The notes under the pieces are model-generated. The model did not search any database, had not been told where the DNA came from, and saw only the letters and a list, made by a program, of their open reading frames with translations. Of a DNA stretch of 20,359 nucleotides, positions 1,401 to 19,450 are shown in pieces. The position numbers and the translations under genes are program-made. The stretch is from a virus: positions 1-20,359 of the IMG/VR virus record IMGVR_UViG_3300044939_000283; one strand, written 5' to 3'. How positions within the stretch are numbered: the first letter of the stretch is position 1; every line of letters begins with the position of its first letter.

Positions 1401-1469
1401 GCAACTACTGATGTGTTTATAGTTGCGCGCAAAACTTCCTTTGGTGGTTTTTCACAACCGTGCTATACT
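1401..1469 (+). promoter_or_regulatory. Promoter P1 with upstream TAGTTGC dyad
   Basis: An extended -10, TGCTATACT (1461-1469, core TATACT 1464-1469), lies 17 bp after a weak -35, TTGGTG (1441-1446). Upstream is the inverted repeat GCAACTA (1401-1407) / TAGTTGC (1420-1426), ending 14 bp before the -35. A second, imperfect dyad (TTGGTG ... CACAA around a T-run) overlaps the -35 and spacer. The same elements in the same register recur at 16829-16879. Transcription would start near 1476, giving a leader of about 45 nt before the gene at 1520, which has a good ribosome site (GGAGG 1509-1513). It probably drives the replication operon. Confidence 0.65.
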
Positions 1470-1823: not shown

Positions 1824-2744
1824 ATGGACGTGTTTAGCATTGCAACCAGCGGGCAGCCGAAGGAAACGAAGCAAAAGCTGCCATACCATTTAGTATTTTT
1901 GTCAATTCCGGTCGAGAGCCAATGCACGTTTCGCATCGTTGGCGAACCAATTGTGATGGTTCGTCGTTGGGTCGCACAAGACCCGGAAACAAAACAGTGG
2001 GTTCCGGTGTGGGGGTATAATCCGAACGACAAGCGGGTTCGTCGCCCGATCGTTTTAGCAGTTAAGCGTGGCAACAAATGGATTGGTGATCATCGCAACG
2101 ATCCCATCAGTCGCGTCATTGCACAAATGCAATTGCCTGATGAGGTCAAAGAACAAGCGTTGCGTCCCGAGTTTCTAACGTTGTTCCCTGTATTTGACGT
2201 ATCGCGGGTAGTGCGCCAGGTTGCGGAGGATGGCTCGGTGACTCTTGTGTATCCAAATGTCAATGGTTCGTTCCCGCAAGCAATTGCGCGACATGCGGAG
2301 CTGCGTAATGAGCCGGCGATTTTGGAGTTACGCGGAGTGCCGCGTATTCGCGATGGCGTTGCGATCGGAGAAGCCGCGATTGATAAATTGTATCAGTTGT
2401 TCTTGAGTCTCGTTGAAACCGATCCGACGACCGGCAACGCGCAACAACTTGACATCACGAACTATTTGATTGTCATGAAACGAGTGCGCGGGGAGGGCGG
2501 CAAGCCGTTGACCCACTTCCTCGCGCAGCGTCCGCAATCGTTGCCGGAGATTACATCGTATTACGATCTGACAACGTGGCCAACGCCGGTCAATCACGAC
2601 GCATTGCAACAGTTGCTTGACGGAACATTGTCATATAGTGACATGTTGACGGCGAGCAATATTGAGTTGTTGCCGCGTCTGGTGACGGCTGAGCAGAACG
2701 AGCAACACGAGCAGGCGGCGGAAGAAGATCTGTTTGACGATTAA
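1824..2744 (+). CDS. Putative single-stranded DNA-binding protein
   Basis: The product has 306 residues. I chose ATG 1824 because AAGGAG lies 8 nt upstream; ATG 1806, in the same frame, would sit ahead of that site. The C-terminus is strongly acidic (EQAAEEDLFDD), as in SSB, T4 gp32 and T7 gp2.5, where an acidic tail recruits replication partners. A region near residues 195-235 (AIDKLYQLFLSL ... LDITNYLIVMKR ... LTHFLAQ) resembles the end of gp32-like phage SSB domains, where a 'DIT.Y.I...R' strand precedes a Thr/Tyr-rich strand. No zinc-binding cysteines are present, unlike T4 gp32. The gene lies directly before primase and helicase, the usual place for a replication-fork SSB. The assignment rests on tail, fold pattern and context. 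Confidence 0.45.
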   Translation: MDVFSIATSGQPKETKQKLPYHLVFLSIPVESQCTFRIVGEPIVMVRRWVAQDPETKQWVPVWGYNPNDKRVRRPIVLAVKRGNKWIGDHRNDPISRVIAQMQLPDEVKEQALRPEFLTLFPVFDVSRVVRQVAEDGSVTLVYPNVNGSFPQAIARHAELRNEPAILELRGVPRIRDGVAIGEAAIDKLYQLFLSLVETDPTTGNAQQLDITNYLIVMKRVRGEGGKPLTHFLAQRPQSLPEITSYYDLTTWPTPVNHDALQQLLDGTLSYSDMLTASNIELLPRLVTAEQNEQHEQAAEEDLFDD

Positions 2745-2750
2745 GCACTT

Positions 2751-2782
2751 GGTTCCCGTAGCAAGCAATTGCTGCGGGAACC
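2751..2782 (+). promoter_or_regulatory. Long intercistronic hairpin with GCAA tetraloop
   Basis: Arms 2751-2764 and 2769-2782 form a 14-bp stem with one G-U pair, capped by GCAA (a GNRA-type loop). It fills the gap between the SSB-like gene and the primase. No U-run follows (next bases TTGTCATC), so it does not look like an intrinsic terminator. It could be an RNA processing or stability element that sets different levels of SSB and primase; that is inference. Confidence 0.6.
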
Positions 2783-2814
2783 TTGTCATCGTGGCAAAGG
2801 GCAAGAGGTAGCGT

Positions 2815-3729
2815 ATGGCGAAGGGCTACAAAACAACGTGCCCGGAATGTAAGAAGGGTAACTTTTACGTAACGCCGCACAATGGTTTTGGATATTGCTT
2901 TAATTGCGGATTTCGCCAATCGAGCAGGTTTACTCATCAACCTATTGTTGTTTCGCACGAAGAAATTGCTGTTTTTCGTCAATTATACACCGAACTCGCT
3001 GCGTATTATCATAGTTGCCTTGACGAGCAGCATCGGGCGTGGTTGCATCGACGCGGTATTAGCGATGCGATGATCGATCAGTTTCAGATCGGGTATGTTC
3101 CCGCGTCGTTTCACATTTTGTACAGTAGCGAGTTTGCAGAAAAAGCGGGTATTGCGGTCAATAAACAACCGTTTCTTGCAAATCGGATCGTGTTCCCGTA
3201 CTTGTTGAACGGAATAGTATACGATTTGCGAGGAAGAAGTATCGCACATGAGGAACCAAAGTATCTTTCATTGCGCAATTCTGCAACGTTGCGCGGAGCA
3301 ACAATTGTGTATAACGCGGATGTCTTACGAGGAAGACCGGAAACGCTCGTGATTACCGAGGGAGAAATAAAAGCGATTGCGTCGCAACAAGCCGGCATTG
3401 CAACCGTCGCGTTCCCCGGCATTCGGTCACGTCGCGATCTTCAAGTTTTTTCATCACAGCGTGTTGTTATTTGCTTTGACAACCAACTGCGCCACTATTA
3501 CGACGTATATCGCGCTATTGTTGACCTTGCTACTGATTTGCTGCCGTTTACACAACGTATTTTTGTCGCGCTATTACCATTATGGAGTAACAACCGATGG
3601 TTTCAGTACGAAAAGATGGATATTGACACGTATATTTTACAGTATGGTGAAAAGGCATATCGAACTATCATCGAAACCGCTATCCCTTATGTGCGTTTTC
3701 TGCAATTAGCGAGAGGATTTCTACCATGA
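2815..3729 (+). CDS. DnaG-type DNA primase
   Basis: The product has 304 residues and makes RNA primers for phage DNA synthesis. An N-terminal zinc ribbon has Cys 9, 12, 28 and 31 (CPEC ... CFNC). A helical linker with the typical WLHRRGISDAMIDQFQIGY segment (76-94) and the RNA-polymerase basic region (NRIVFPY; EPKYLSL) follow. The TOPRIM domain has the catalytic Glu in TEGE (about 182) and FPGI after it. The metal-binding DxD motif reads FDNQ (Asp 222, Gln 224), so the second Asp is replaced. At 304 residues it is about half the length of cellular DnaG and has no obvious helicase-interaction domain. The start has an AGAGGT site upstream, and the stop overlaps the helicase start (ATGA), matching a primase-helicase pair made together. 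Confidence 0.85.
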   Translation: MAKGYKTTCPECKKGNFYVTPHNGFGYCFNCGFRQSSRFTHQPIVVSHEEIAVFRQLYTELAAYYHSCLDEQHRAWLHRRGISDAMIDQFQIGYVPASFHILYSSEFAEKAGIAVNKQPFLANRIVFPYLLNGIVYDLRGRSIAHEEPKYLSLRNSATLRGATIVYNADVLRGRPETLVITEGEIKAIASQQAGIATVAFPGIRSRRDLQVFSSQRVVICFDNQLRHYYDVYRAIVDLATDLLPFTQRIFVALLPLWSNNRWFQYEKMDIDTYILQYGEKAYRTIIETAIPYVRFLQLARGFLP

Positions 3730-4988
3730 CGAACGTTGTTGACTACACCAACGCCGCGTTGGAGATGCGTTTGTTGCTCGCATTGCGCGATCGCCAATAT
3801 CATCACCTTATCTCTGCGCTCGATCCACGTTTGTTTGCAGACGAACGAACGCGGTTGCTGTTTGACGCAATGCGGCAAAGTTTTGTGTTGTACGGCGATG
3901 TGACGGAAGACGGCATTGCTCGGTTTTATCGCGATCCGTTGCCGCAAGAACTATCGCTGCCGGTACACGTTGATCCGTTCCCCATCATCGACGAATTATC
4001 GCGATTGCAGAAAAAGCGCGCATTATACGAAGTGAGCCAGCATCTTCGTCAACTTTCGGCGGAACCCGACCCTGATATTACGCATCTCTTTCACGTGATT
4101 GAGCGCGAATTACCGCGAAATGTACGCTCAATAACGATCCAATCCGGCGTGGATGAGTTTTTGTCACTCTTTGAAGCGCGGCGAACTGGTACGTATCGCT
4201 GGTTGCGTACCGGATTGGAGTGGCTCGATCAAATGATTGGCGGGGAATGGCCACGCGGCGAAATCTCGATTGTTTCAGCGCGATCCGGCGGCGGCAAAAC
4301 CGCGTTGATCGGCGCTTCGGCGCTGAATATGGCGCGGAACTATCATTTAGATCAATCTGAAGGCTCGCCGACTGCGATTTTCTCATTAGAAATGCCGCGT
4401 CCGCAGCTCGTTGCGCGGTTTGTTGCGAACTTGTTAGGAATTGATAGCAGGATCGTTCGGAATGGTATGAATATTGACGGATCACCGATCGCACCAGACT
4501 TGATTGATCTTATTAAGGCGACAACCGAAGAAATTGCTCAACTGCCGCTGTACATCATCGAGGCTGAAGGGTTTGGCGCGGATGACATTATCGCAACGGC
4601 GCGGGCATTGCATGTTGAGCACAATGTACAGGTGTTCTTCGTGGACTATTTGCAATTGGTAAAATACGAAGGCGATAATATGCATTATGGATTAAGTAGC
4701 GCGATTAAGCGCATTCGCGATTTTGCAAAACAATACAATGTTGCATTTGTGTTAACCGCGCAAGTTAATGAAACGAAGGGGACAATCCGCGACAGCACCG
4801 ATCCCGAAAAAGACGCGGCGCTGTGGTTGCATATTGATATTGATTACGAAAGCCGCGATGATCAGGGCGTTGCGCGCACGCGGGTGACGGTCAAGAAGAA
4901 TCGCCATGGCCCGACTGGTTCGGCAAATGTGCTCTATCATTCGCGCAAACTTGCGTTTTTAGGGATGTCCGAACATTACCAGATGTAG
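3726..4988 (+). CDS. DnaB-like replicative helicase
   Basis: The product has 420 residues. A helical N-terminal domain of about 130 residues leads by a linker to a RecA-like domain typical of hexameric replicative helicases. Walker A is ARSGGGKTAL (Lys 191, Thr 192), the H1a Glu is in FSLEMP (Glu 222), and Walker B is VFFVDYLQLV (Asp 307). Downstream are the QVNETKG and VKKNRHGPTG regions expected for motifs H3 and H4. It would unwind the phage fork 5' to 3' with the adjacent primase. The start overlaps the primase stop by ATGA. No intein or frameshift is seen. Length and motif order are close to bacterial DnaB, with a shorter N-terminal domain. Confidence 0.88.
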   Translation: MTNVVDYTNAALEMRLLLALRDRQYHHLISALDPRLFADERTRLLFDAMRQSFVLYGDVTEDGIARFYRDPLPQELSLPVHVDPFPIIDELSRLQKKRALYEVSQHLRQLSAEPDPDITHLFHVIERELPRNVRSITIQSGVDEFLSLFEARRTGTYRWLRTGLEWLDQMIGGEWPRGEISIVSARSGGGKTALIGASALNMARNYHLDQSEGSPTAIFSLEMPRPQLVARFVANLLGIDSRIVRNGMNIDGSPIAPDLIDLIKATTEEIAQLPLYIIEAEGFGADDIIATARALHVEHNVQVFFVDYLQLVKYEGDNMHYGLSSAIKRIRDFAKQYNVAFVLTAQVNETKGTIRDSTDPEKDAALWLHIDIDYESRDDQGVARTRVTVKKNRHGPTGSANVLYHSRKLAFLGMSEHYQM

Positions 4989-6247
4989 TGATTATGACAA
5001 GTACCACGATAAAACGTAGAAAATTAACAAAAAAGCAGAGTGCCGCAAAAAAGGCAAATCGCGCAAAGAAGGTGCGCCGTATCAATAAAGAAGTGTTGCG
5101 GCAGCGAAAACGCGAACAGCGCTTGTTGCAGCGCGAACGCGAAAAAGCGCGAAAAGCGGCGCAGCGGCAGAAGGAACGATTGCGCAAGCAACAAGCAACA
5201 TTGCGCAAACAGGAACGAGAGCGACAATTAGCAGAGGCGCGAAAACAACAAACGGAAGTAGTTACGCCGGTTAAACTGCCACGATCGTCGTATCTTGCAA
5301 AACGAACGATTACACAACTGCACAAATTGTCGCAATTAACCGGGATATCGCCTGACATTGTGCGATTTTTAGTATCTCGAACACGCATGGCAGTGAGGCA
5401 TAAAATGAAAACTGACAGACAGCGGGTTAACCTCAATCAACGGCGCGGGAAACGAGCAGAATACAATGCGGTTGCGAACATTCGTTCGTTCGGGTTGTAT
5501 GCACAACGTGTTCCGCAATCCGGCGCGGGCGGAATGCGCGGAGATGTGTTAGTCACGTTACCGACCCGTGCGGTGTTGATGGTCGAGGTTAAATTCTCCG
5601 CGCAATTTACCCAAGGGAACGAGAAATGTATCAGATTGCAGATGGATTGGTTTGAGACGCTCGATGAAAATTATCGCGCAATGCAGCAATATAACGTGAT
5701 CGCTGCGTTGTTTTTGTTCAAATACGGGTTCTCGAACGTGTTTTTCGTCGCTATTCCGGCGGAATATTTGAAGAAACTCGAAGATCATCTGGGCGCTTCA
5801 CTCAATGATTATCAGCGACCGATTATGAACCAACCGTTTTTGGAGAGTTTAGAACCGGTTGATACAAAAGGGAAATCGTTAACCGTTCGTGCAACGCGGG
5901 CGTTACGCGGGTTGGCGTGTTTTCATACCGACACAAAATATCAAAAAGAACGCACAATCTATTGTTTTGCGGCGGAATACTTTTGGGATTGGATCGAACA
6001 AACGCTTAAAACGCAAGATCGCTGGTACGACGGCTCTATTCCAGATCGCAGCCTGGGTGGAAGGCCGCGAAAGAGCGAGTTCCCACGAATGTTTTTGCAT
6101 AAGAAAGGAGTACCACATGAACCGATCGCTGAAACCGCATTCGGTGATCTCGCAGACGATCAAGACGACGCCGGCGAAGCGGATTGGACAGACGCTGACG
6201 GAGCAGGTGCGGAACGCGAAGGTGATAGTTGCCAGCGCGACGGCTGA
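4988..6247 (+). CDS. PD-(D/E)xK nuclease, Holliday-junction-resolvase-like, with basic coiled-coil N-terminus
   Basis: The product has 419 residues if GTG 4988 (overlapping the helicase stop as TAGTG) is used, or two fewer from ATG 4994. Residues about 8-90 are a very Lys/Arg/Gln/Ala-rich helix, probably a coiled coil that binds DNA. Residues 150-205 carry the Hjc-like core: RGKRAEYNAV (Glu 158), RVPQSGAGG, RGDVLV (Asp 186) and MVEVKFS (Glu 200, Lys 202). This is the order of the archaeal-type resolvase family, which cuts four-way junctions. The last 43 residues are acidic and are encoded in the 131 nt that overlap the polymerase gene in another frame. A role in resolving recombination or packaging intermediates is likely; another nuclease role cannot be excluded. 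Confidence 0.7.
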   Translation: MIMTSTTIKRRKLTKKQSAAKKANRAKKVRRINKEVLRQRKREQRLLQREREKARKAAQRQKERLRKQQATLRKQERERQLAEARKQQTEVVTPVKLPRSSYLAKRTITQLHKLSQLTGISPDIVRFLVSRTRMAVRHKMKTDRQRVNLNQRRGKRAEYNAVANIRSFGLYAQRVPQSGAGGMRGDVLVTLPTRAVLMVEVKFSAQFTQGNEKCIRLQMDWFETLDENYRAMQQYNVIAALFLFKYGFSNVFFVAIPAEYLKKLEDHLGASLNDYQRPIMNQPFLESLEPVDTKGKSLTVRATRALRGLACFHTDTKYQKERTIYCFAAEYFWDWIEQTLKTQDRWYDGSIPDRSLGGRPRKSEFPRMFLHKKGVPHEPIAETAFGDLADDQDDAGEADWTDADGAGAEREGDSCQRDG

Positions 6248-8204
6248 TTTAGCAGCTATCGCGATTGAAGGAGATATTGTTGCGGTCGATCTTGAGACAT
6301 CAGGGTTAGACTGGCAGCGCAACGACGTGTTGCTCATCTCGATTGCGGATAGCTTGCAAACATCAATCGTGCTTGATGTCTCGTCGATCGATCCGCACGA
6401 ATTGCGGGCGTGGTTACATCGAAACCTGTTTGGCCGGTTGATTGTTGGTCATAATTTGAGTTTTGATCTTAAATTTTTGGCGCGGGTGTATGATTTTGAT
6501 CTTCGATCTTGCGCGTATTACGACACCATGCTTGCGGAAATTATACTTTTTGCCGGTCTCGACTACAGCAATTCACTGAAAGAAATTGTTGCACGTCGTA
6601 TCGGATTAGAACTTGACAAAACGATCCGCGCCGATTTCACCGCGTTCGGTCGAGCCTTGACGATGACCGACGCGCATTATCGGTATGCGTCACTCGATGC
6701 GCTAACAACGCTCGCAGTTCGAGAATTACAACTCGTCGATCTCAGAACGCATGAGCTAGAGAAGATTGCGGAATTAGAAATGCGCTTGTTGCCGGTCGTG
6801 GTTGAGATGGAACTTGGCGGCGTTCCGTTCGATTGGCAACGATTCGAAACATTTGTTTCCGTGTTACATGAAAAACGAACAATCGCTGAGCGGCTCATGC
6901 AAGAAGCGCTGCAACCGGCGGCGTTGAGGATCGCGGGGCACCAAGCCCGGCATACGCCGCAACTATTTATTGTTCCACAAATAATTAACATTAATAGCAA
7001 GCCGGTATGCAAAAATGGCGTCTGGAACTACGGGCAATTGTGGCCGGCGCTGCAACAGTACGGGATCGAAATTGTTGACAAAGACGGTAATCCGTCACTC
7101 TCGGCAAAAGATATGCAACGGTGGGACGCGGCGCATACGGTTGATGTCGCTATCCCGCCGGAAGCCGACGCATTGTTGCAATCATATAGACAGTATCGCA
7201 ACTCGTTGTTGAATCTCTATGCATATACCATTGCGATCCATAAACTCGATGATAGTTTTGTCAAGACGCTCAGGGAAATGTACCACAATGGCCGGTTGTA
7301 CCCGTGGTTTAAGCAGTTAGGTGCGAAAAGTACGGGGCGGTTTAGTAGCAATCTGCAACAGTTACCGAAAGACGAAAAAATCACACCGCTTGGTCTTCCA
7401 TCCTTGCGGCAATGTATCGCGGCGGAACCAGATCATTCGTTGGTGATCGCTGATTTTGCTGGTATTGAATTGGTGATTTTGGCGGATATGTCGGGTGACG
7501 AGGTGCTCGGTGATCTTATTGTCAAGTCAGCACGAGGGGAAGAAGATATTCATTTGTACGTCGTCCGGCAGGCGTTCGGCGATCTGTATCCTGAAGCGCG
7601 CAATGCAACCTTGGACAAGAAGAAAGTTGCGCCGTATTCGTTGTTGCGAAATGCGGCAAAACCAACGAGCTACGGGATCGCATACGGCATTACCGGCGTG
7701 GCGTTAAGCGATACGATCTCTCAACAATTAGCGCCGCTCGGTGTTACCTGCACGCCGGAACAGGCGCAGCAAATTATCGACAACTGGAAACAAAAGGCAT
7801 TTCGGAAAGCTGGTGCGTGGCTCGATAAAACGGCGCAGCAGGGGCAGAGGCCGGGCTATGTTCGCACCGCGTTAGGACGAAAACGCATGTTCGATCTGCG
7901 TCACGCGGATCGTAAATCGTTGTCCGCGATTGGCCGAGAAGCAAGCAACGCGCCGATTCAAGGAACCTGCGCGGATATGTTGAAGTTGGCGATGGTGTAC
8001 GTCGCGAAAGACCTCGATCCGACGCGAGCGCGATTAATTTTGACGGTGCATGATGAACTGGTGTTGCACGCAACGAATGACTACGTGCAGGAAGCGTCGA
8101 TGGTTTTGAAGCAGAGCATGGAAAAGGCAGCGCGGAAATGCATGCCACGGATGGGGCAATACGTTGTCGTCGAGCCTGCGATCTCATCGTGTTATGACAA
8201 GTAA
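6117..8204 (+). CDS. Family A DNA polymerase with 3'-5' exonuclease domain
   Basis: The product has 695 residues from ATG 6117, chosen because AAAGGAG lies 6 nt upstream; the frame is open further 5', but there it overlaps the nuclease. Proofreading motifs are DLE (58-60), HNLSFD (Asn 113, Asp 117) and YASLD (Tyr 190, Asp 194). Polymerase motifs are TGRFSSNLQQLP (406-417), motif A DFAGIEL (Asp 446, Glu 451), motif B RNAAKPTSYGIAYG (Arg 511, Lys 515, Tyr 519), NAPIQGTCAD, and motif C VHDE (Asp 646). There is no 5'-nuclease domain. Tyr 519 stands where E. coli Pol I has Phe 762 and T7 polymerase has Tyr 526. This is the phage replicase, in the same operon as primase and helicase. Confidence 0.92.
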   Translation: MNRSLKPHSVISQTIKTTPAKRIGQTLTEQVRNAKVIVASATADLAAIAIEGDIVAVDLETSGLDWQRNDVLLISIADSLQTSIVLDVSSIDPHELRAWLHRNLFGRLIVGHNLSFDLKFLARVYDFDLRSCAYYDTMLAEIILFAGLDYSNSLKEIVARRIGLELDKTIRADFTAFGRALTMTDAHYRYASLDALTTLAVRELQLVDLRTHELEKIAELEMRLLPVVVEMELGGVPFDWQRFETFVSVLHEKRTIAERLMQEALQPAALRIAGHQARHTPQLFIVPQIININSKPVCKNGVWNYGQLWPALQQYGIEIVDKDGNPSLSAKDMQRWDAAHTVDVAIPPEADALLQSYRQYRNSLLNLYAYTIAIHKLDDSFVKTLREMYHNGRLYPWFKQLGAKSTGRFSSNLQQLPKDEKITPLGLPSLRQCIAAEPDHSLVIADFAGIELVILADMSGDEVLGDLIVKSARGEEDIHLYVVRQAFGDLYPEARNATLDKKKVAPYSLLRNAAKPTSYGIAYGITGVALSDTISQQLAPLGVTCTPEQAQQIIDNWKQKAFRKAGAWLDKTAQQGQRPGYVRTALGRKRMFDLRHADRKSLSAIGREASNAPIQGTCADMLKLAMVYVAKDLDPTRARLILTVHDELVLHATNDYVQEASMVLKQSMEKAARKCMPRMGQYVVVEPAISSCYDK

Positions 8205-8487
8205 CGTCAGCACAATTGTTCGAGTTCCGCATCAGAATGCGCTAAAACGCGATCGCACAGGAAGCGTTCTAAGCAATTGTTCGTCGGGTCGTGATAGTTT
8301 GTCTTGTTGTTCGAGTGTAAAGCGTTTCTGAGCCGTTCTGTGAAGTCGTCGTTTTACCGCATTAGAACGCGGCAAACAACCGCACAAACGAGCGAAATCA
8401 CGGAATAATGCAGAAAACGCTTTACACTGTCAATCGGTCTCTTTTTGTCGCACAATGACACTAAGCATCAGAAAGCGGAGAAACGAA
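8205..8487 (+). repeat. Non-coding dyad and iteron-like region, candidate origin or operator array
   Basis: No convincing gene lies in these 283 bases. A near-perfect inverted repeat spans 8315-8330 (GTGTAAAGCGTTTCTG) and 8411-8427 (same word reversed, one extra A). The word GCGTTCTAA and relatives recur in both orientations: 8264-8272 (+), 8362-8370 (-, TTAGAACGC), 8232-8240 (-, TCAGAATGC), and CGTTCTG at 8334-8340. CAATTGTTCG occurs at 8213-8222 and 8274-8283, with TTGTTCGAG at 8307-8315. The region follows the polymerase gene and precedes dUTPase. Clustered short repeats around a dyad are typical of replication origins or multi-site operators. No DnaA box was found. Confidence 0.5.
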
Positions 8488-8937
8488 ATGGCACACAAAC
8501 CAAGCATTACCATCGTCGCACCGTCTGATCTCGACTATCGTTCGCCGCGTGACGGTGATGCCGGTATTGATTTGATTACGAGTGAAACTATCGAACTGCC
8601 GGCGTGGGAGTGGGTTGTTATCAATACCGGTTTAAAACTCGCTATTCCTGAAGGATACGTCGGGTTTGTGCGCGGTCGAAGTGGGAATGCATTCAAAGAA
8701 CGTTTGTTCGTGTTTGAGGGAACGATCGACTGTTCGTATCGCGGCGAAATTAAAGTGCTTGCGAGTTGGCAGCCTTCACACGCAACGTTTGATCATCGAC
8801 TGTCGCGAGTTGTGCAGAAAGGTCAGCGTATTGCGCAGTTGGTGATCGTTCCGTATTACGTTAGCACGCTTGTTCGAGTTGAAACGCTCGACACGACGGA
8901 ACGCGGTGAGAACGGATTTGGCAGTACGGGAGCATAA
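8488..8937 (+). CDS. dut: dUTP diphosphatase (dUTPase)
   Basis: The product has 149 residues. It hydrolyses dUTP to dUMP and diphosphate, keeping uracil out of phage DNA and supplying dUMP. All five motifs of the trimeric family are visible: GDAGIDL (near 23-29), RGRSGNA, GTIDCSYRGEI with the catalytic Asp, KGQRIAQLVI, and the C-terminal RGENGFGSTG arm. ATG 8488 was chosen because GGAG lies 8 nt upstream and motif spacing fits; ATG 8455 in the same frame would add 11 residues without a good site. The next gene starts 20 nt after the stop. It sits with the methyltransferase and ribonucleotide reductase as a nucleotide and DNA-modification cluster. Confidence 0.93.
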   Translation: MAHKPSITIVAPSDLDYRSPRDGDAGIDLITSETIELPAWEWVVINTGLKLAIPEGYVGFVRGRSGNAFKERLFVFEGTIDCSYRGEIKVLASWQPSHATFDHRLSRVVQKGQRIAQLVIVPYYVSTLVRVETLDTTERGENGFGSTGA

Positions 8938-8956
8938 TAGATCGGGGAGTGCAACG

Positions 8957-9472
8957 ATGAAGCCCGCGTTATTTATGTCACAAACCGGTGAATGGTACAC
9001 GCCGAAATGGGTTATTGACAAAGTGTCTCATGTACTCGATGGTATCGACCTTGATCCGGCCAGCAACGCGATAGCGCAAGAGATTGTGCAAGCGCGGCAC
9101 TGGTGCGGGTTTGATCATCCTGACCCGGCGATGCGTGATGGTCTTGCAATTGACTGGTCTCCGTATCGCTCTATTTACGTCAACCCGCCGTATGGTCGCG
9201 CTATCGTTCCGTTTGTGCAAAAAATTGCAAGGTATGCGCAAGACAAGCAGATGGCGGTTTTAGTTGCAGCGCGAACTGACACGCGATGGTGGCGGATGTT
9301 GACACAACACGATCACACCGTCGTCTTTTTCCGCAACCGAATATCGTTTTGGACAATTCGCGAAGACATCGCGCGGCGTTCAACCTTTCCTAGCGTGTTG
9401 TTGTGCTATCATTGCGATCTTGATCGTATCCGTGATCTGTTTTCCGATCAGGTAATCTACCGGCCCGTTTAG
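8957..9472 (+). CDS. Phage Dam-family DNA N6-adenine methyltransferase
   Basis: The product has 171 residues and belongs to the short phage 'DNA N-6-adenine-methyltransferase' (Dam) family. Motifs in order are EWYTPKWVID (12-21), DLDPAS (31-36), a GFDHPDPAMRDGL segment, the catalytic-type NPPYG (76-80), and a conserved FPSVLL (144-149) near the C-terminus. These enzymes methylate adenine using S-adenosylmethionine; family members are commonly thought to shield phage DNA from host restriction. The target site cannot be read from the sequence. GGGGAG lies 7 nt before ATG 8957; upstream starts overlap dut in another frame. A truncated relative lies antisense at 424-675. Confidence 0.85.
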   Translation: MKPALFMSQTGEWYTPKWVIDKVSHVLDGIDLDPASNAIAQEIVQARHWCGFDHPDPAMRDGLAIDWSPYRSIYVNPPYGRAIVPFVQKIARYAQDKQMAVLVAARTDTRWWRMLTQHDHTVVFFRNRISFWTIREDIARRSTFPSVLLCYHCDLDRIRDLFSDQVIYRPV

Positions 9473-9493
9473 CTTTTTGTTGCGGAGGTCTGC

Positions 9494-11404
9494 ATGTCCA
9501 CGCTCGATCTGTCATTTATTGAAGCATATCGTGATCGCCCGATCACGTGGGGATACGACGGTGTAGGTGAACTGGTGTTCTACCGCACGTACAGTCGCAA
9601 ACGTTCTGATGGTATGGCGGAGACGTGGGTAGATACGCTTAAGCGAGTAATCGAGGGAGCGCAAGAGATCGGGGCAGGATACACGCAAGACGAAGCCGAA
9701 CGTTTGTTCGACCACATGTTCAACTTTCGCGCACTGCCGGGCGGTCGCATGCTGTGGCAGTTGGGGACGGAAACGGTGCGACATCTTGGCGCTAATTCAT
9801 TGCTCAATTGTGCGTATGTTGACATTCAAACTATCGAAGATTTTTGCTTTTTGTTTGATAGTCTGATGCTTGGATGTGGTGTAGGATTTTCGACAACACA
9901 TTATGACAAGTTCCCGCCGGTCAAGCCAAACGTGACTATCAATCATAGTCCCTCTTCGGACGCGGATTTTATCGTGCCCGATAGTCGTGAGGGATGGGTG
10001 AAGTTGTTGCGTGAGGTACTCACTGCGTTTTTTGTAACTGGAAAATCATTGACCTATTCAACGTTGTTAGTGCGTCCGAAGGGAACTCTGATCAAACGGT
10101 TTGGCGGCGTGGCAAGCGGGCCGGAACCGTTGGTCAACGGCATGCAACAGATTGCGTCGCTTTTGCAGCGACGCGCTGGTCAACGCATTACGTCAATTGA
10201 TATTTTGGACATTGCGAATATTATTGGCTCCATTGTTATATCAGGCAACGTTCGTCGCTCGGCGGAAATCGCGTTAGGATTGCCGGATGACGCAGAGTTT
10301 CTAAAGGCAAAGCGATGGGATTTAGGCAGCATTCCGAATTGGCGGGCATTCTCGAATAATACCGTTATCTGTACAGATATTAACGAATTACCTGATCTCT
10401 TTTGGGAAGGGTATAACGGAAATGGTGAGCCATACGGGTTATACAATCCGTATGCAGTGCGGAAATATGGCCGTGCCGGAGAAGAATTGTTCGACCCTGC
10501 AACCGGCATCAATCCATGCGGTGAAATCCCGCTGGAAAGCTACGAGTTTTGCAATTTAAGCGAGCTGTTTTTGCCTAATTTCGATAACAAGAACCAATTT
10601 TTTGACGCTATCTATCTCCTGTATAAGCTGCAAAAAGCGATTACGCAAATGCCGTACCAGTGGGATCGGAGCCGCGAGGTTGTCCATCGCAACCAGCGGA
10701 TTGGAATGAGTATCAGCGGCTGGATGCAATGTTCGCCGAAACGGTTGAGTTGGATCAACGACGGGTATGTGCATCTCCGTTCGTTGAACAATGAACAAGT
10801 AATACCGTCGATCCGTCTGACAACAGTCAAGCCATCCGGCACGCTGTCGTTGCTAGCTGGTACAACGCCGGGTGTGCATCCCGCATTTGCACCGTATTTC
10901 ATTCGTCGAATTGCGATGGAAGCGACAAATCCGTTAGTGGATTATGCGAAATCACTGGGGTATTCGGTTGAATATCGTCGCAATTTTGATGGAAGCGAGG
11001 ACACAACTACTGTTTTAGTCGCTATTCCGTGCCGGGCACCATCGAATGCGAAAGTTGCGAAAGCAGTTTCGGCGATTGACCAGCTCGAAATGGTGAAATA
11101 TGCGGCAACAACGTGGGCGGATAATGCAGTAAGCGTGACGGTGTATTATCGCGATGATGAGTTGCCGGCGATACAGCAGTGGTTGCGCGATCATTATCAA
11201 GAGGCGATCAAATCGGTTTCATTTCTGAGACATTCGGAGCATGGGTTCGATCAGGCCCCGTATGAAGAGATTGACGAAACGACATACAAGGCGATGTGGG
11301 AAGAGATCAGGCAGCGACGGACGAAGAACGCTCGTGCTACGGTTGCGTATCAAGAAGCGACCGTGTTCGATGCCGAATGTGCCGGCGGCGTGTGCCCAAT
11401 TTGA
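9494..11404 (+). CDS. nrdJ: Class II adenosylcobalamin-dependent ribonucleotide reductase, compact
   Basis: The product has 636 residues. It reduces ribonucleotides to deoxyribonucleotides using a cobalamin-derived radical. Cys 106 (LLNCAYVDI), Cys 342 and Glu 344 in NPCGE, and Cys 353 (EFCNLSE) match the active-site residues of the monomeric Lactobacillus leichmannii enzyme, and the C-terminal CAGGVC pair (Cys 629, Cys 634) matches its redox relay. Other family landmarks are FDSLMLGCGVGFS, SGNVRRSAEI, NQRIGMSISGW and TTVKPSGT. The Lactobacillus enzyme is 739 residues; here loops after LLNCAYV and between ISGW and TTVKPSGT are visibly shorter. GCGGAGG lies upstream of ATG 9494. Two terminators follow, so it closes its operon. 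Confidence 0.9.
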   Translation: MSTLDLSFIEAYRDRPITWGYDGVGELVFYRTYSRKRSDGMAETWVDTLKRVIEGAQEIGAGYTQDEAERLFDHMFNFRALPGGRMLWQLGTETVRHLGANSLLNCAYVDIQTIEDFCFLFDSLMLGCGVGFSTTHYDKFPPVKPNVTINHSPSSDADFIVPDSREGWVKLLREVLTAFFVTGKSLTYSTLLVRPKGTLIKRFGGVASGPEPLVNGMQQIASLLQRRAGQRITSIDILDIANIIGSIVISGNVRRSAEIALGLPDDAEFLKAKRWDLGSIPNWRAFSNNTVICTDINELPDLFWEGYNGNGEPYGLYNPYAVRKYGRAGEELFDPATGINPCGEIPLESYEFCNLSELFLPNFDNKNQFFDAIYLLYKLQKAITQMPYQWDRSREVVHRNQRIGMSISGWMQCSPKRLSWINDGYVHLRSLNNEQVIPSIRLTTVKPSGTLSLLAGTTPGVHPAFAPYFIRRIAMEATNPLVDYAKSLGYSVEYRRNFDGSEDTTTVLVAIPCRAPSNAKVAKAVSAIDQLEMVKYAATTWADNAVSVTVYYRDDELPAIQQWLRDHYQEAIKSVSFLRHSEHGFDQAPYEEIDETTYKAMWEEIRQRRTKNARATVAYQEATVFDAECAGGVCPI

Positions 11405-11548: not shown

Positions 11549-12295
11549 ATGAAACGTCGATCTTTCGAGCAACGATTTCGCGACAAACTCGCAGAATATG
11601 AACAATCGTATGATTTGAGTTCGGTTAACAGCGCGAATGACAAAGATAATCTTCGCGCCTTGATCTCAAACGCGCTCATTATCGAGGATTTGCACGAAAT
11701 GTTACAGGAAATGAGCGATAGCCAGTCGCTCGATCCGGCAAGCATTGAAAAAACAACGCAACTTATTCAAAAATTGCTTGCGACGAATCAACAATTAGAG
11801 CGGCAGCTCGGAATAGATCGCAAAACGCGACGGGCAAGCGGATCGGATAGCGTGCCGGAGTACATCGCGGCGTTGCGAGAAGCGGCGAAACAGTTTATCG
11901 ATCAACGATTGACACGGGTTATCTGCCCAAAATGTCACGTCATGGTTGGTCGGTTTGCTCCGGTACACGATCACACACGATACGTTGTCGCATTTCAATG
12001 TTCGCAATGTGGCGACATGGTGGCGATCGAACGTGATGAACGCTCGGTTTGGTTCGATCTAAAGCCGCGGGAATACAAATGGCGGAAAAACTATCCGGTT
12101 TCGATCCGGCCCGCGAAAGCGCGAAAGATCAATCCAATCGTGACGGGCAACGTAGCAGGCGTCGTGTTGGAAAGCGAGTCGGAAGAACAAGAACCAGCGA
12201 CGCCCGCGCAAGAACGTATCGAAATCGAAGATGCGACCGTCGTTATTAACGATAAAGAAGTAGCAGATCATGGCAATAACACAGAAATTAACTGA
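11549..12295 (+). CDS. Putative terminase small subunit with zinc ribbon
   Basis: The product has 248 residues and lies directly upstream of, and overlaps by 26 nt, the large terminase gene, the usual place of the small subunit that recognises packaging sites. The N-terminal third is helical (FRDKLAEYEQSYDL, then NDKDNLRALISNALIIEDLHEML), a pattern seen in small-terminase-like phage proteins. Residues about 125-157 hold a four-cysteine zinc ribbon (CPKC ... CSQC) that could bind DNA or a partner. The C-terminus is Glu-rich and probably disordered. The ribosome site before ATG 11549 is weak. The role is inferred from position and fold pattern; a general DNA-binding accessory protein is the main alternative. 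Confidence 0.55.
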   Translation: MKRRSFEQRFRDKLAEYEQSYDLSSVNSANDKDNLRALISNALIIEDLHEMLQEMSDSQSLDPASIEKTTQLIQKLLATNQQLERQLGIDRKTRRASGSDSVPEYIAALREAAKQFIDQRLTRVICPKCHVMVGRFAPVHDHTRYVVAFQCSQCGDMVAIERDERSVWFDLKPREYKWRKNYPVSIRPAKARKINPIVTGNVAGVVLESESEEQEPATPAQERIEIEDATVVINDKEVADHGNNTEIN

Positions 12296-14885
12296 AAGCG
12301 AACTTGCGTTACTTGAAATTCTTGATGATCCGGTATGGTTTGGCGAGTTTTTGCGCAATACGAAAGACGGCCAAACCCAGCGGCATCTCTGGCCCAAACG
12401 CACGTTTTCGTATCGTTGGTATCAGAAAGATTTGTTGACGGATCAATCATCAGCAGTCGCGGCGCGTGGCGGTCGCGCAATCGGGAAATGCCAGCCGGCG
12501 ACTGCACAGGTTTTGACGCCATTTGGTTGGAAAAAAATCGGGCAAATTATCCAAGAGTACGAGCGGCGGCGGGTGCTTATTCCCACGAAACCCGTTCCGT
12601 TTGAAATCATTGCCGTCACAAAGGATATGAAATTAGTAAACGCGCCGGCGGTACTTTTTTACAACGGGCGTAAACCGGTGTTTCGCGTGACGACAAAATC
12701 AGGGTATAGCATCGAAGCAACAAAAGAACACCCGTTATTGACAAGGCACGGATATATTGCATTAAGCGAGGTAAAGGTAGGTGATGAAATCGCGGTTGTT
12801 GGTACTATTCCCGACGGGTTAGTGTATGAACGCGGGTTTACCAAGCCTGATGAATTACGATTACTAGGATATTGGTTTCTCGAACCTGACGAAAAAGTGA
12901 TCGGATTGTATCCGCGAACAAAGCACGTGCGTGATGATATTGCTCGCATTGCGCAATCGCTCAATATTGATTTTTACGAGCGATCTGATGGCGCAATTGC
13001 ACTCATGCGCGGCAAAAAATACTACTGGATGCTCAGCGATGTGTCTAAACGTATGGGAAGAACCTTCGGATATTTCGCGAAACGGTTCAATACGGACTAT
13101 CATTTCTCAGTGCATCAGCAAACAAAGCTGCCCAGCGAACTGTTCAATGAAGGAAAAGAGCAATTTCGCGCGTTTATCGAAGCGTTGTTTGCACAATACG
13201 CTGATATTTCGCGGAATGTTATCACAATTGACGTCATCACGGAACTAAATGTTCACATCTTGCGCCGCGTTTTACTTCGATTTGGTGTATTTTTTCGCGT
13301 CGTCAACACGACCATTATCATTGATGATCCCATCGCACTGTTCCGGTTTTTCAAGCAATTTCGCGTGCCGGGCGTTGCGGTTGCTTCTGTTCTTCCCCCG
13401 TCGAATTATACCGACGACTGGTATTTTTTCGATCCCATCGTTAGCATAACGCAACAACCGTCAACGCTTACATATGCTATTCAAGTGCACGAACATCACG
13501 TGTATTTGTCAGATTTTGTTGTTTCACATAATTCACTTTTTGTTGAAGATCGTATTTTGTGCGATATTTTTCAGCACGAAACGCGACTGCCGGACACGAA
13601 AGAGGTTCTCTTGTTGGCTAATAACGAGGCGCAGGTTGAACCGATCATGAAACGATTGTACGACCGGTTGCGTGCGTCTCCATTATTGCGCCACTATGTT
13701 CACAATATTAATCGTTCCGATGGCGTTTTTGATTTTCGATTTCCAACGGGCGAACAAGTGCTATTGCGTGTTCGGAACACCGGTATCGGAAATAATCAAT
13801 TAGTCGGGTTGCATGTTGGCAAAATGTACATTGATGAGGCGCAATTATTTTCAGAAGAAAGCTGGCAACAAGCTGCACCAGCATTAAACGATTGGGAGCA
13901 AAGTGCGCAAGTGTTTGTCACGGGCGTACCCAACGGTATGCGCAATTCATTATTGTATTTTGCAAGTAAACCATCATCAGGATTTAAAGAATATCACATT
14001 CCAGCCCCGAATAATCCATTTTACACTATCGAACAAGACGAATTGAACAAAAAACGTTATGGAGGGGAACAATCCGATGCGTATCAACAGTTAGTTTTGG
14101 GCAACCACGGCCAAGCGGTGCAAGTATTGTTGCATCGCGAACAAATTCAAACAAAACCAATTGACTACACGCCATCGATCTACACGGAACGAGAACTAAA
14201 AATTGGCGAACCTTACTATTCCGTGATCGAGCGTCCGCCGTTACCATATCAGCTTATCGCGTTTGGTATTGACTGTGGATTTGTCGATCCGACCGTTATC
14301 ATTATCCTTGGCAAAAACACAGATCAACCGTGGCAAATTGCGCATAAAGTGGTGTTGAAACGTGTCGATTTCGACACGCAAGTGAAAATTATCGATTGGT
14401 TGGCGACAAGTTACAAACCAACGCTTATTGCGATTGACACGAGCACCGGCGGCGGCGGATTGCATATTGTGCATACGTTGCAGCACAATGAGGGGTATGA
14501 CCGCAATTACTATCGCGCCGTCATTCATAGCGTCCAATTTCACGGCAAGATGAGCATTGGATATGATGCACAAGGGGAAGAGATCACGGATTACGTCAAG
14601 TCTGTGGGTGCAGCGACGCTTGTGCAAATGGTTTCAGATGGAATGATTGTATTCCCAGAAGTTGATCAGGAACTTATTTCGGAGATTGAACGAATTACGC
14701 GGGTTGTTTCTCGCGGTGGATCGTCGTCGTATTTCATTCTGTCCGAGCAAGGACATGGTCAATCGCCGAACGATCACCAATTCGCAGCGTTGATATGTTT
14801 CGCGGTTGCAATCAAGAGTCAGGCGACACAACGCATTCGCCGCCGGCTTGCGCTGCCGAAAGGATTGTATCAATCGCACAAATAG
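12270..14885 (+). CDS. terL: Terminase large subunit, intein-containing precursor
   Basis: The 871-residue precursor gives a 523-residue terminase once the intein (residues 74-421) is removed. Terminase is the packaging motor and nuclease. Joining the exteins restores the P-loop ARGGRAIGKS, split as GK/S. Walker B is KMYIDEAQ (Asp 522, Glu 523) and the coupling motif is FVTGVPNG (549-555). The C-terminal RNase H-like nuclease has Asp 668 (AFGIDCG), Asp 723 (LIAIDTS) and Asp 835 (SPNDHQF). The ATG lies inside the preceding gene, so translation is probably coupled. Without splicing the ATPase motif is broken, so packaging depends on the intein. Confidence 0.92.
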   Translation: MAITQKLTESELALLEILDDPVWFGEFLRNTKDGQTQRHLWPKRTFSYRWYQKDLLTDQSSAVAARGGRAIGKCQPATAQVLTPFGWKKIGQIIQEYERRRVLIPTKPVPFEIIAVTKDMKLVNAPAVLFYNGRKPVFRVTTKSGYSIEATKEHPLLTRHGYIALSEVKVGDEIAVVGTIPDGLVYERGFTKPDELRLLGYWFLEPDEKVIGLYPRTKHVRDDIARIAQSLNIDFYERSDGAIALMRGKKYYWMLSDVSKRMGRTFGYFAKRFNTDYHFSVHQQTKLPSELFNEGKEQFRAFIEALFAQYADISRNVITIDVITELNVHILRRVLLRFGVFFRVVNTTIIIDDPIALFRFFKQFRVPGVAVASVLPPSNYTDDWYFFDPIVSITQQPSTLTYAIQVHEHHVYLSDFVVSHNSLFVEDRILCDIFQHETRLPDTKEVLLLANNEAQVEPIMKRLYDRLRASPLLRHYVHNINRSDGVFDFRFPTGEQVLLRVRNTGIGNNQLVGLHVGKMYIDEAQLFSEESWQQAAPALNDWEQSAQVFVTGVPNGMRNSLLYFASKPSSGFKEYHIPAPNNPFYTIEQDELNKKRYGGEQSDAYQQLVLGNHGQAVQVLLHREQIQTKPIDYTPSIYTERELKIGEPYYSVIERPPLPYQLIAFGIDCGFVDPTVIIILGKNTDQPWQIAHKVVLKRVDFDTQVKIIDWLATSYKPTLIAIDTSTGGGGLHIVHTLQHNEGYDRNYYRAVIHSVQFHGKMSIGYDAQGEEITDYVKSVGAATLVQMVSDGMIVFPEVDQELISEIERITRVVSRGGSSSYFILSEQGHGQSPNDHQFAALICFAVAIKSQATQRIRRRLALPKGLYQSHK
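12489..13532 (+). mobile_element. Intein in TerL Walker A motif, endonuclease motifs degenerate
   Basis: It is 348 residues, from Cys (codon 12489) to His-Asn (ending 13532), with Ser as the first C-extein residue. Block A is CQPATAQVLTPFGW, block B is ATKEHPLLTRHGYIAL with the TxxH motif, a VKVGDEI turn follows, block F is YAIQVHEHHVYLSD, and block G is FVVSHN. All residues needed for splicing appear intact. The middle has the size and layout of a LAGLIDADG endonuclease, but the first motif reads LLGYWFLEP (GDG replaced by LEP) and the second FIEALFAQYA (DADG replaced by AQYA). The catalytic acids look lost, so it should splice but not home. The position, between Lys and Ser of GKS, is a highly conserved codon pair. 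Confidence 0.9.
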
Positions 14886-16828: not shown

Positions 16829-16879
16829 TTAGTTGCATGCGCAACTAAACTTGTACTTTTTGTACAATTGTGCTATACT
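16829..16879 (+). promoter_or_regulatory. Promoter P2 with upstream TAGTTGC dyad
   Basis: An extended -10, TGCTATACT (16871-16879), lies 17 bp after -35 TTGTAC (16851-16856). Upstream, TTAGTTGC (16829-16836) and GCAACTAA (16841-16848) form an 8-bp dyad with ATGC between. A second dyad, TTGTAC-TTTTT-GTACAA (16851-16867), overlaps the -35 and spacer. TAGTTGC ends 14 bp before the -35, exactly as in P1, and the spacer shares TTTT..ACAA..GTGC. It drives the membrane-protein genes from 16921. Confidence 0.75.
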
Positions 16880-16920: not shown

Positions 16921-17337
16921 ATGGAGTCGCAGCGTGAAGTACTGGATGACCAGCCGACCGAACCATTCCCCGTCATCGCTCGCATTGAGCGACACGCGCT
17001 GCCAGCGTTTGTCTGGTGGGTAGGCGGGGGATTCGTGTTGTCGTTTATGACATTCGTTGCGCAAGAAACCATGTATCTTCTTGCGCTGTGGGGCGTGCTC
17101 GGGTTTGCGGCTGCGGTAACGTTGCTCGTTATCGCTGCGTATCGCGTCTACACCGAACTACTGCAAGTGTACACTGATGTTCAAGAGATGCTTTATAGCA
17201 TTGCGCAAGCAACGCAACCACACGCAATTGCTCACGATACGCAACGATTGCAGACGCAACCTGTTTCGTCGTCAATCGTGTATGATCGAGACGGGGTGGC
17301 TATTCAGTTTAGTGAAATATTCAAAGAGATGAGTTGA
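16921..17337 (+). CDS. Small two-helix membrane protein, first gene after P2
   Basis: The product has 138 residues from ATG 16921, chosen because GAGGTG lies 6 nt upstream and promoter P2 lies just before; the frame is open further 5', but that part holds the promoter. Two apolar segments (about 28-47 and 50-73, including VWWVGGGFVLSFMTFVA and LLALWGVLGFAAAVTLLVIA) form a probable helical hairpin, flanked by an acidic N-terminus and a polar C-terminus of about 60 residues ending in EIFKEMS. A two-helix protein of this size could be a holin or an envelope-modifying early protein; no endolysin gene is nearby to support the first. Function unknown. Confidence 0.75.
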   Translation: MESQREVLDDQPTEPFPVIARIERHALPAFVWWVGGGFVLSFMTFVAQETMYLLALWGVLGFAAAVTLLVIAAYRVYTELLQVYTDVQEMLYSIAQATQPHAIAHDTQRLQTQPVSSSIVYDRDGVAIQFSEIFKEMS

Positions 17338-17363
17338 GTTTGATGTAATCAAAGGAGGAACGT

Positions 17364-17801
17364 ATGCGCATTGATCGCAACAACATTAAAACAGTCACTT
17401 CGTACATCATTCCTGCATTTGCGTTATTGCTTATTGTTTGGAACGCGGTCGGGAAGTTTTACTTTTTCTCGTTTTTTGCGCCAACGTCATCGCTTTATGA
17501 TATTTTCTTTCACATCAGCGCGGATAGTGATAATTTTTACAAGGCGCTGATGGTCGAAGCGGTATGCGTGGTGCTTCAGCTAACGGCGCAATTGCCGGAC
17601 TATCGAGAGAAAAAATTAGCGCGCCCGTTATACATCGGCGCGTTGTTGTTTAGCGTTCTCATGAGTTATCCCGCGATGTACACGATTTATACGCTTTGGT
17701 TCAATTTGTCACAATTTCCATCATTATTCGCCGCCGCGATTGTATTCATTTTAGTGATCGCGGTTGATGCATTTGCTGAATTAGCGTTGGTAAACGTTTA
17801 A
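17364..17801 (+). CDS. Four-helix membrane protein of unknown function
   Basis: The product has 145 residues with four likely membrane spans, at roughly residues 12-32, 58-76, 86-106 and 118-142; the last contains Asp and Glu (VIAVDAFAEL). The strong ribosome site AAAGGAGG sits 5 nt before ATG 17364, suggesting high translation. It is 26 nt after the previous gene in the P2 operon. I recognise no family. The absence of charged catalytic clusters argues for a structural or transport-accessory role, but this is not established. Confidence 0.75.
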   Translation: MRIDRNNIKTVTSYIIPAFALLLIVWNAVGKFYFFSFFAPTSSLYDIFFHISADSDNFYKALMVEAVCVVLQLTAQLPDYREKKLARPLYIGALLFSVLMSYPAMYTIYTLWFNLSQFPSLFAAAIVFILVIAVDAFAELALVNV

Positions 17802-17819
17802 GTATGAGGAACTATAACT

Positions 17820-18137
17820 ATGAACATTACCTACCACCCACAAACCTTCACTATTACCGCGCCGGATACTGATACTTTTGTCATTGACACCGTTTTCTTT
17901 TCTCTTCTTCGTAACGAACCTTTCAATGAAGACACTATTTACCACGCAATCGCTCAATTTTACACCGCGATGAAATACGTGCCGGTCTATATTCCAGATC
18001 GTGAAAGCACGTACAGGCTTGTTACGCATTTGCTTCTTAGCAATAATCAAGCATCGTTCGTGCAACCGGATACGTTCCATCAAGCGTTGATTGCGTTTTT
18101 GGCGGGGAAGGGATACGTTGTTTCGACCCAGCAATAA
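17820..18137 (+). CDS. Hypothetical small soluble protein
   Basis: The product has 105 residues with mixed beta and helix character, no membrane segment, no cysteine and no motif I know. It begins with a strand-rich stretch (ITYHPQTFTITAPDTDTFVI) and continues with helices rich in Tyr, Phe and His. GAGGA lies 9 nt before ATG 17820, and the gene starts 18 nt after the previous stop, so it belongs to the P2 operon. Confidence 0.7.
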   Translation: MNITYHPQTFTITAPDTDTFVIDTVFFSLLRNEPFNEDTIYHAIAQFYTAMKYVPVYIPDRESTYRLVTHLLLSNNQASFVQPDTFHQALIAFLAGKGYVVSTQQ

Positions 18138-18147
18138 CATGTAACCT

Positions 18148-18582
18148 ATGCAACCGCCGGTTTTATTTTTTACTATTGCAGTACATCATGTGTATCGCCG
18201 CCGGGATATTATGTATCTCTTTATCTTTATCGCGCTTCTTTGCAGCACTATCGCATTATGTATCCTCCAAGAACCGTTGCGCATCGTGCTTGCATCCGGG
18301 GTCGGATTAGCTTTTTCTGAAGCGCTTGACACTGAATTGTTTCATCGTCTCAAACGACATTGGATTATCCGTATTCTTACCAGCAATACGATCAGCGTTC
18401 CGTTCGACAGCGCGCTTTTCTTTCTTATCGCATTCGCTGGCATTCTTCCCAACGATATGCTTTTGTCGCTCATTGTCACGGCTACCATTGTGAAATATAG
18501 CATGTCCATCATCGCGATAGTTTTGGTGTATCCCGCGTTTCGTCGCGTTTTCCATTCGCCGCCCTTTTCATTCTTGCGTTGA
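18148..18582 (+). CDS. VUT/YhhQ-family membrane transporter homologue (queuosine-precursor type)
   Basis: The product has 144 residues and resembles the second half of VUT-family proteins. These include YhhQ, which imports the 7-deazaguanine precursors preQ0 and preQ1. Family landmarks seen are ASGVGLAFSEALDTELFHRL (normally 'A...SE..D...F..L'), then HWIIRILTSNTISVPFDSALFFLIAF ('SN..s..vDs.lF...AF') and a final membrane helix. It has four or so spans against six in full-length YhhQ, close to the short versions found in some phages and actinobacteria. No ribosome site precedes ATG 18148; ATG 18211 is an alternative start. No queuosine biosynthesis or DNA deazaguanine-transferase gene is in the window, so the substrate is inferred. 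Confidence 0.7.
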   Translation: MQPPVLFFTIAVHHVYRRRDIMYLFIFIALLCSTIALCILQEPLRIVLASGVGLAFSEALDTELFHRLKRHWIIRILTSNTISVPFDSALFFLIAFAGILPNDMLLSLIVTATIVKYSMSIIAIVLVYPAFRRVFHSPPFSFLR

Positions 18583-18796: not shown

Positions 18797-19450
18797 ATGG
18801 TTTTTCAACAAACAGCATCGTCCAACGAGGAAATCGCGCCGATCATCGTCGTGATCGCGGTTGGAAACGGTGACGGTTTGGAAAATGAGGGTTTCGGATG
18901 TATAAAAAATAGGTTTTTATGGCTTTCTGAAGCGGTAAATCGCGATTTGCTTTCGCTTCGATCACACGTTCTACCCGAACATTCGTTCGCTCGCTCGCCC
19001 GTTTCTGCACCCGCTTCTACACGCAACGTCGAGCAACGCAACGAAATCGAGCGCGCTATCGATCGCGCTGGCGACATCGAGCGCGCTGGCGACATCGAGC
19101 GCGCTATCGATCGCGCTGGCGACATCGAGCGCGCTGGCGACATCGAGCGCGCTGGCGAACAATTGTTTTACGAGCTGAAGCGATTAACCTTGAACGCGCC
19201 GGTTTACGTTGTTCCGATCGACGACCTCCCGTCGTTGCGAAGCGAACCGCCGCCGTTGCGAAGCGAACCGTCGCTGCTCTGTATTGTTGCGCATGAAACT
19301 GTTCGATCGACGCTTGATACGTCGACCCTCCCCATTCCGCATATGCTGATCGAATACAACGATGCGGGCGAATTACGATTTGTCGCGTTGGTCACAAAAC
19401 GAAAAGAGAAACGAACGCGAAAGCGAAGAAAGAGAAAGACGACGCGATGA
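18797..19450 (+). CDS. Repeat-containing hypothetical protein with basic tail
   Basis: The product has 217 residues in three parts: an N-terminal region of about 80 residues without known motifs, a central tandem repeat of IERAIDRAGD and IERAGD units (about residues 84-121), and a C-terminal region with a short SLRSEPP/PLRSEPS duplication and a very basic tail (KRKEKRTRKRRKRK). The repeats are alternately acidic and basic and should be helical. The frame is intact through all repeats, which supports coding. The stop overlaps the start of the GIY-YIG gene (ATGA), so the two are probably translated together. The ribosome site (AAGG about 10 nt before the ATG) is modest. Function unknown; a DNA-binding partner of the nuclease is possible given the basic tail. 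Confidence 0.55.
   Translation: MVFQQTASSNEEIAPIIVVIAVGNGDGLENEGFGCIKNRFLWLSEAVNRDLLSLRSHVLPEHSFARSPVSAPASTRNVEQRNEIERAIDRAGDIERAGDIERAIDRAGDIERAGDIERAGEQLFYELKRLTLNAPVYVVPIDDLPSLRSEPPPLRSEPSLLCIVAHETVRSTLDTSTLPIPHMLIEYNDAGELRFVALVTKRKEKRTRKRRKRKTTR
19046..19159 (+). repeat. Higher-order tandem repeat, 30+18+30+18+18 bp
   Basis: Units alternate between a 30-bp and an 18-bp form that share the word ATCGAGCGCGCT and the ending CTGGCGAC; the 30-bp form contains an extra 12 bp (ATCGATCGCGCT). The 30+18 composite occurs twice almost exactly, then one more 18-bp unit. All units are multiples of 3, so copy-number change keeps the reading frame. Confidence 0.9.
19233..19270 (+). repeat. Two copies of a 17-bp word at 21-bp period
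   Basis: CGTTGCGAAGCGAACCG occurs at 19233-19249 and 19254-19270, encoding LRSEP twice. The 21-bp period preserves the frame. Confidence 0.9.

Follow-up and report, generated by a model that had tools for sequence, protein, structure and literature searches.

Does a phage known from sequence alone place two distant operons under one control? Most environmental phages are known only in this form, and the timing of their genes is unknown. The window, by which we mean the whole stretch of DNA analysed here, is an entire virus record of 20,359 bases, and the virus infects bacteria of hot-spring mats. A preliminary description had claimed that two of its promoters, P1 and P2, share an identical regulatory layout and answer to one dedicated regulator of a replication operon and a membrane-protein operon. 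A fixed-register motif on named operons defines a regulon that can be tested in a hot-spring phage not yet cultured, and such a motif is a route to a regulator overlooked by homology searches.

Gene content and relatives

Besides the replication genes, the window encodes a portal, a terminase with an intein domain and small membrane ORFs. The genes of interest are the following.

1520 to 1819, + strand: 99-aa ORF, first gene of the P1 operon, without a family match
1824 to 11404, + strand: remainder of the replication and nucleotide block 3' of P1, assigned by Pfam
12270 to 14885, + strand: large terminase subunit with an intein splicing domain (PF14890)
16921 to 18582, + strand: P2 operon, with 138-aa and 145-aa hydrophobic ORFs, a 105-aa ORF and a 144-aa half-size queuosine-precursor-transporter-like ORF

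The 99-aa product has three predicted helices, and a fold search gave no significant match. The block behind it begins with a 306-aa ORF, a primase-like gene, a DnaB-like helicase, a further ORF and a family A DNA polymerase, and continues with a dUTPase, a Dam-like methyltransferase and a class II ribonucleotide reductase. Among isolated phages the nearest polymerases are only about 25% identical, and for the portal there is no match. Close relatives are G001 (IMGVR 3300027515_000001, 52.7 kb), G002 (3300028820_000040, 25 kb) and the fragments L002, L004, L005 and L007. The sample that yielded G002, 3300028820, appears as a red/grey mat in a study of Yellowstone hot-spring mats (PMC9600594).

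Two promoters with a common register

P1 (1420 to 1469) and P2 (16830 to 16879) consist of the same parts in the same order: TAGTTGC (1420-1426 and 16830-16836), 14 bases, the TTG of a -35 hexamer, a 17-bp spacer and TGC-TATACT, or TAGTTGC-N14-TTG-N17-TGCTATACT. The preliminary description was accurate about the 14-bp distance and the 17-bp spacer at both sites, but the search pattern that it offered, with TTG-N20-TGCTATACT, has zero matches as spelled out, the true spacing being TTG-N17-TGCTATACT.

1402 to 1426, + strand: P1 far dyad, GCAACTA-N11-TAGTTGC, read from the sequence; its two arms are unchanged in G001 and G002
1423 to 1435, + strand: P1 element A, TTGCGCGCAAAAC, at about -53 to -41, in the same register as in P2 and P3
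1441 to 1446, + strand: P1 -35, TTGGTG, matching TTGACA at 3/6 positions
1461 to 1469, + strand: P1 extended -10, TGC-TATACT, after a 17-bp spacer (-10 hexamer 1464-1469)
16833 to 16845, + strand: P2 element A, TTGCATGCGCAAC, within the dyad TAGTTGC-ATGC-GCAACTA (16830-16847)
16851 to 16867, + strand: P2 -35, TTGTAC (3/6; 16851-16856), and second dyad, TTGTAC-TTTTT-GTACAA
16871 to 16879, + strand: P2 extended -10, TGC-TATACT, after a 17-bp spacer (-10 hexamer 16874-16879)

Aligned without gaps, the two promoters are identical at 35 of 56 positions; with the TTG/TGCTATACT core left out, 22 of 38 agree. For TTG-anchored pairs drawn at random from the window the figure is 9.6±2.8 of 38, with about 2e-5 of pairs reaching 22; for AT-rich TTG-anchored pairs the fraction is 5e-5. 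The flanks are near background, at 22/60 upstream and 8/40 downstream. This likeness is well beyond chance even when the number of promoter pairs per genome is considered. Downstream of each promoter lie a ribosome-binding site and an ORF, at most about 45 bases from the predicted start.

The TAGTTGC word itself is a poor guide. The window has nine copies of it where about 2.5 would be expected (about 4x over-represented), TTGC/GCAA words are 2.5-fold over-represented genome-wide in the window and G001, and TTGCGCAA is found 46 times on the two strands of G001 where about 1.6 are expected (about 28-fold). As a general signature of these genomes, TTGC/GCAA words inflate dyad-like matches and leave TAGTTGC by itself as weak evidence. 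This composition signature, together with that of TTGCGCAA, could aid host assignment.

Of the claimed identical layout, the register is common to both promoters, but the first dyad is arranged differently: P2 has TAGTTGC-N4-GCAACTA, and P1 has GCAACTA-N11-TAGTTGC plus TTGC-GC-GCAA. The second dyad, described for both, is good in P2 but weak in P1, and it is broken in the P1 of G001 and G002, where the region reads TTTTTCAAAA rather than the TTTTTCACAA of the window. The dyads of P2 give it a stable RNA fold (z -3.4), and the fold of P1 is unremarkable (z -0.1). A transcription terminator was considered for both sites and set aside, given the unremarkable P1 fold and, in P2, no T-tract directly after a GC-rich stem.

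A third promoter in a relative

A scan of G001 with the P1/P2 consensus returned a third site, P3 (TTGCATACGCAACAACCTTTGGTGGTTTTTGCATCGTATTGTATACT), whose position is 51990 on the minus strand, directly 5' of a 323-aa ORF (G001 50954-51925). The pattern TTGC-N14-TTG-N20-TATACT occurs in the 52.7 kb of G001 exactly three times, at P1, P2 and P3, each shortly 5' of an ORF, and the exact TAGTTGC pattern is found outside this phage group at about chance frequency. Occurrence at chance frequency across the genome had been named beforehand as an outcome that would speak against the claim, and the claim passes this check. From -53 to -36 the three promoters share 35 of 54 possible pairwise matches. 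In 200,000 random TTG-anchored triplets the mean was 13.6±3.3 and the maximum 32, with none reaching 35. On non-core letters P3 has a best score of 21, which 0.14% of TTG-anchored windows attain; P3 therefore rests on the element, the register and the promoter core combined. In dyad geometry P3 goes with P2 and differs from P1. The product of the P3 gene has no family match and a poor structure model (pLDDT 35), and an early guess that it is a sliding clamp was dropped for want of support from either.

P3 also bears on whether the likeness could have arisen without a dedicated regulator, by duplication or recombination of promoter DNA. It resembles a chimaera, in that its upstream half is like P2 (TTGCAT.CGCAAC) and its downstream half like P1 (TTTGGTGGTTTTT), in identical register. 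However, identity among the three drops to background outside -53 to -7, so that the likeness ends at the promoter edges, with flanks of 29-32% identity in -95 to -54 and 20-27% downstream, and the element is kept where flanking positions have changed. We regard shuffling of promoter DNA as distinctly improbable.

Conservation and specificity

G001 and G002 retain P1, and G001, L004 and L007 retain P2. None of these relatives departs from the window in the TTGC, the -35 TTG or the -10 TATA; with so few and such similar sequences, three or four to a site, this is weak footprinting. The P2 of L004 has a -10 of TATAAT instead of TATACT. In the P1 of G002 there are two changes 3' of TTGC and one half-element is altered, namely the downstream half of element A. 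The arms of the second dyad in P2 are unchanged in G001 and L007, and one arm position differs in L004. The promoter class is absent from the distant portal relatives L009-L014. Within the group it is real and conserved; G001 has at least three members and the window has two.

In IMG/VR, the exact pattern is confined to this phage group and one unrelated phage, L015 (G003; IMGVR 3300033485_000302), where positions 360-409 hold an exact TAGTTGC-N14-TTG-N17-TGCTATACT and, slightly upstream, a CTGATGT as in P1. There is little match beyond the specified letters, and we take this site as chance rather than as a member of the class; a convergent origin is conceivable. Patterns of the P2/P3 and P1/P3 types find, within the phage group in IMG/VR, only the group's own P1, P2 and P3 sites, and their matches on unrelated contigs, which look like coding sequence by eye, were discarded.

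The phage might instead borrow a host transcription factor that binds the element, a reading favoured by the host-type promoter core and by the failure to find a phage regulator in G000, G001 or G002. Against it, the exact pattern occurs three times in 84,980 species genomes (257 Gb), in two Treponema and one Flavobacteriaceae, near the roughly 1.9 matches that we estimate under uniform base use (2 x 257 Gb / 4^19). We dismissed these three as about a chance number; in a comparison that covers the exact pattern, the genomes do not point to any host regulon built on it in full. We consider a borrowed host factor unlikely, and favour a factor that would be made by the phage.

Two kinds of promoter in one phage

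In G001, TATACT is rarer than expected (13 against 26), and nine of the 13 occurrences are recognisable promoters. In six of these the -35 agrees with TTGACA at 5-6 of 6 positions and the element is absent, and promoters with such a good -35 lie at 6430 (-), 12395 (+), 47952 (+) and 50251 (-), among others; the remaining three, P1, P2 and P3, have a -35 of 3/6 and all carry it (Fisher P=0.012). Non-core identity is 20-22 of 38 in pairwise comparisons within the class, 6-8 of 38 between the class and the TTGACA promoters, and 11-16 between the class and a TTGGCA promoter at 11136. A generic sigma-70 scan was abandoned as a means of finding promoters: it gave no excess over shuffles and missed P1 and P2.

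Relative to the same phage's other promoters, P1, P2 and P3 thus combine a good -10 with a poor -35, and have at a fixed distance upstream an element that the others are without. A poor -35 together with an element absent elsewhere is what activator-dependent ("middle") promoters should show, and activator dependence is the most likely reading of these sequences.

The opposite sign of control deserves consideration, namely that the element is a repressor operator and that the promoters are used at once and then shut off by a phage or host repressor sitting beside or across the -35. Operators of this kind typically show palindromes close to or across the -35, and P2 has two; the dyad over the -35 is, however, not kept in P1, and -35 hexamers of 3/6 suit assisted rather than repressed promoters. 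Neither an integrase nor an HTH_3 repressor was matched in the three records (G000, G001 and G002), which may be incomplete. Repression strikes us as rather improbable, and we return to activation.

A proposed activator and its regulon

We consider it somewhat probable that P1, P2 and, in G001, P3 form one stage-specific, activator-type promoter class on a host sigma-70-type polymerase. Hypothetically, the three are active promoters read by this polymerase through a strong, mostly extended -10 and a poor -35. The element TTGC...C..AAC, at about -53 to -41 and always at one distance, would be the binding site of a protein, probably phage-made, which would sit directly 5' of the polymerase and make up for the poor -35 through contact with alpha-CTD or sigma region 4. 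On this model the P3 gene would be switched on jointly with the membrane-protein operon and the replication and nucleotide block as a middle-type set, and promoters with TTGACA-like -35s would be independent of such help.

The claim of a common control element on the replication and membrane-protein operons has held up: the likeness is above chance and conserved, recurs at a third promoter and accompanies poor -35s. It suggests that a single protein may switch on both sets of genes, in keeping with the proposal of one dedicated regulator for P1 and P2. No match to Sigma70_r4 or HTH_3 was obtained in G000, G001 or G002, records that may be incomplete, and the small ORFs behind strong promoters gave no regulator-like match. 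As these searches yielded neither a sigma factor nor an HTH_3 regulator, we infer both the identity of the regulator and the sign of its action. We propose only tentatively that this phage lineage encodes an activator of an undescribed family, acting on TTGC-N4-GCAAC at about -47, with a middle regulon of replication and membrane functions; such a family, if real, would have no match to known regulators.

Comparison with known phage systems

The promoter class is a good, testable prediction of a known general kind. In the middle promoters of T4 (MotA/AsiA, sigma appropriation), an activator box replaces the -35; this MotA box has a TGCTT core and is centred at -30 (PMC2988021). As in P1, P2 and P3, the T4 middle promoters have a good, often extended -10 and a missing or poor -35, serve replication and nucleotide-metabolism genes, and are distinct from early promoters with a good -35. 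However, the element described here lies at -53 to -41 rather than at -30 and has another sequence, and the stretch from -35 to -26 (TTGGTGGTTT in P1, TTGTACTTTT in P2) lacks a MotA-type TGCTT box. T4 has MotA and AsiA, for which a counterpart is not known in the hot-spring phage. With its element elsewhere and of different sequence, the class may work like the MotA system, but is not a member of it.

The activator-dependent CII promoters of lambda carry TTGC-N6-TTGC straddling a poor -35. TTGC half-sites near a poor -35 are common to both systems, but no TTGC-N6-TTGC crosses the -35 here: the TTGC lies 14 bases before the -35 TTG in P1, P2 and P3, and is paired with an inverted GCAA in P2 and P3. 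The Ogr/delta late promoters of phages of the P2 type (the phage, not our promoter) have TTGT-N12-ACAA centred near -55. They too are phage promoters for host RNA polymerase with a palindromic upstream activator site at a fixed distance; however, they drive tail and capsid genes rather than replication and membrane genes, and by eye no TTGT-N12-ACAA lies near -55 upstream of P1, P2 or P3.

Other differences among the relatives

Between 831 and 18140, the window is 92-94% identical to its relatives over most of the stretch. CGATCG occurs ten times in these 17.3 kb, but is absent from the corresponding G001 27661-45115 and from G002 (contig L003); GCCGGC occurs 12 times in the window stretch, once in G001 and nine times in L003. 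The absence of CGATCG suggests restriction-driven loss in one lineage, or a methylation difference. The Dam-like orphan methyltransferase of the window (8957-9472, + strand) is 57% identical to that of G001, in contrast to 82-93% for neighbouring genes, and this gene has likely been replaced.

The P2 operon ends with the 144-aa half-size queuosine precursor transporter-like gene (18148-18582, + strand; PF02592 4e-14, TIGR00697 1e-11), of which only a 23-aa match is left in G001; it may be relevant to 7-deazaguanine DNA modification. Further downstream (18797-19450, + strand), a 217-aa ORF contains a series of AGDIERAIDRAGDIERAGD-type repeats; its G001 counterpart is 63% identical and has a different repeat region.

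The phage contig G001 also carries, behind its 11136 promoter, a gene (L019:10596-11033, minus strand) for a 146-aa protein that matches CAS_Csx15 (NF040560) at 36.7 bits against a cut-off of 35, a marginal match that is collinear over both model ends. Csx15 has been reported as not seen in phage genomes (2026 paper, PMC13148439). It is possible that this protein is an anti-type III CRISPR cyclic-nucleotide sponge.
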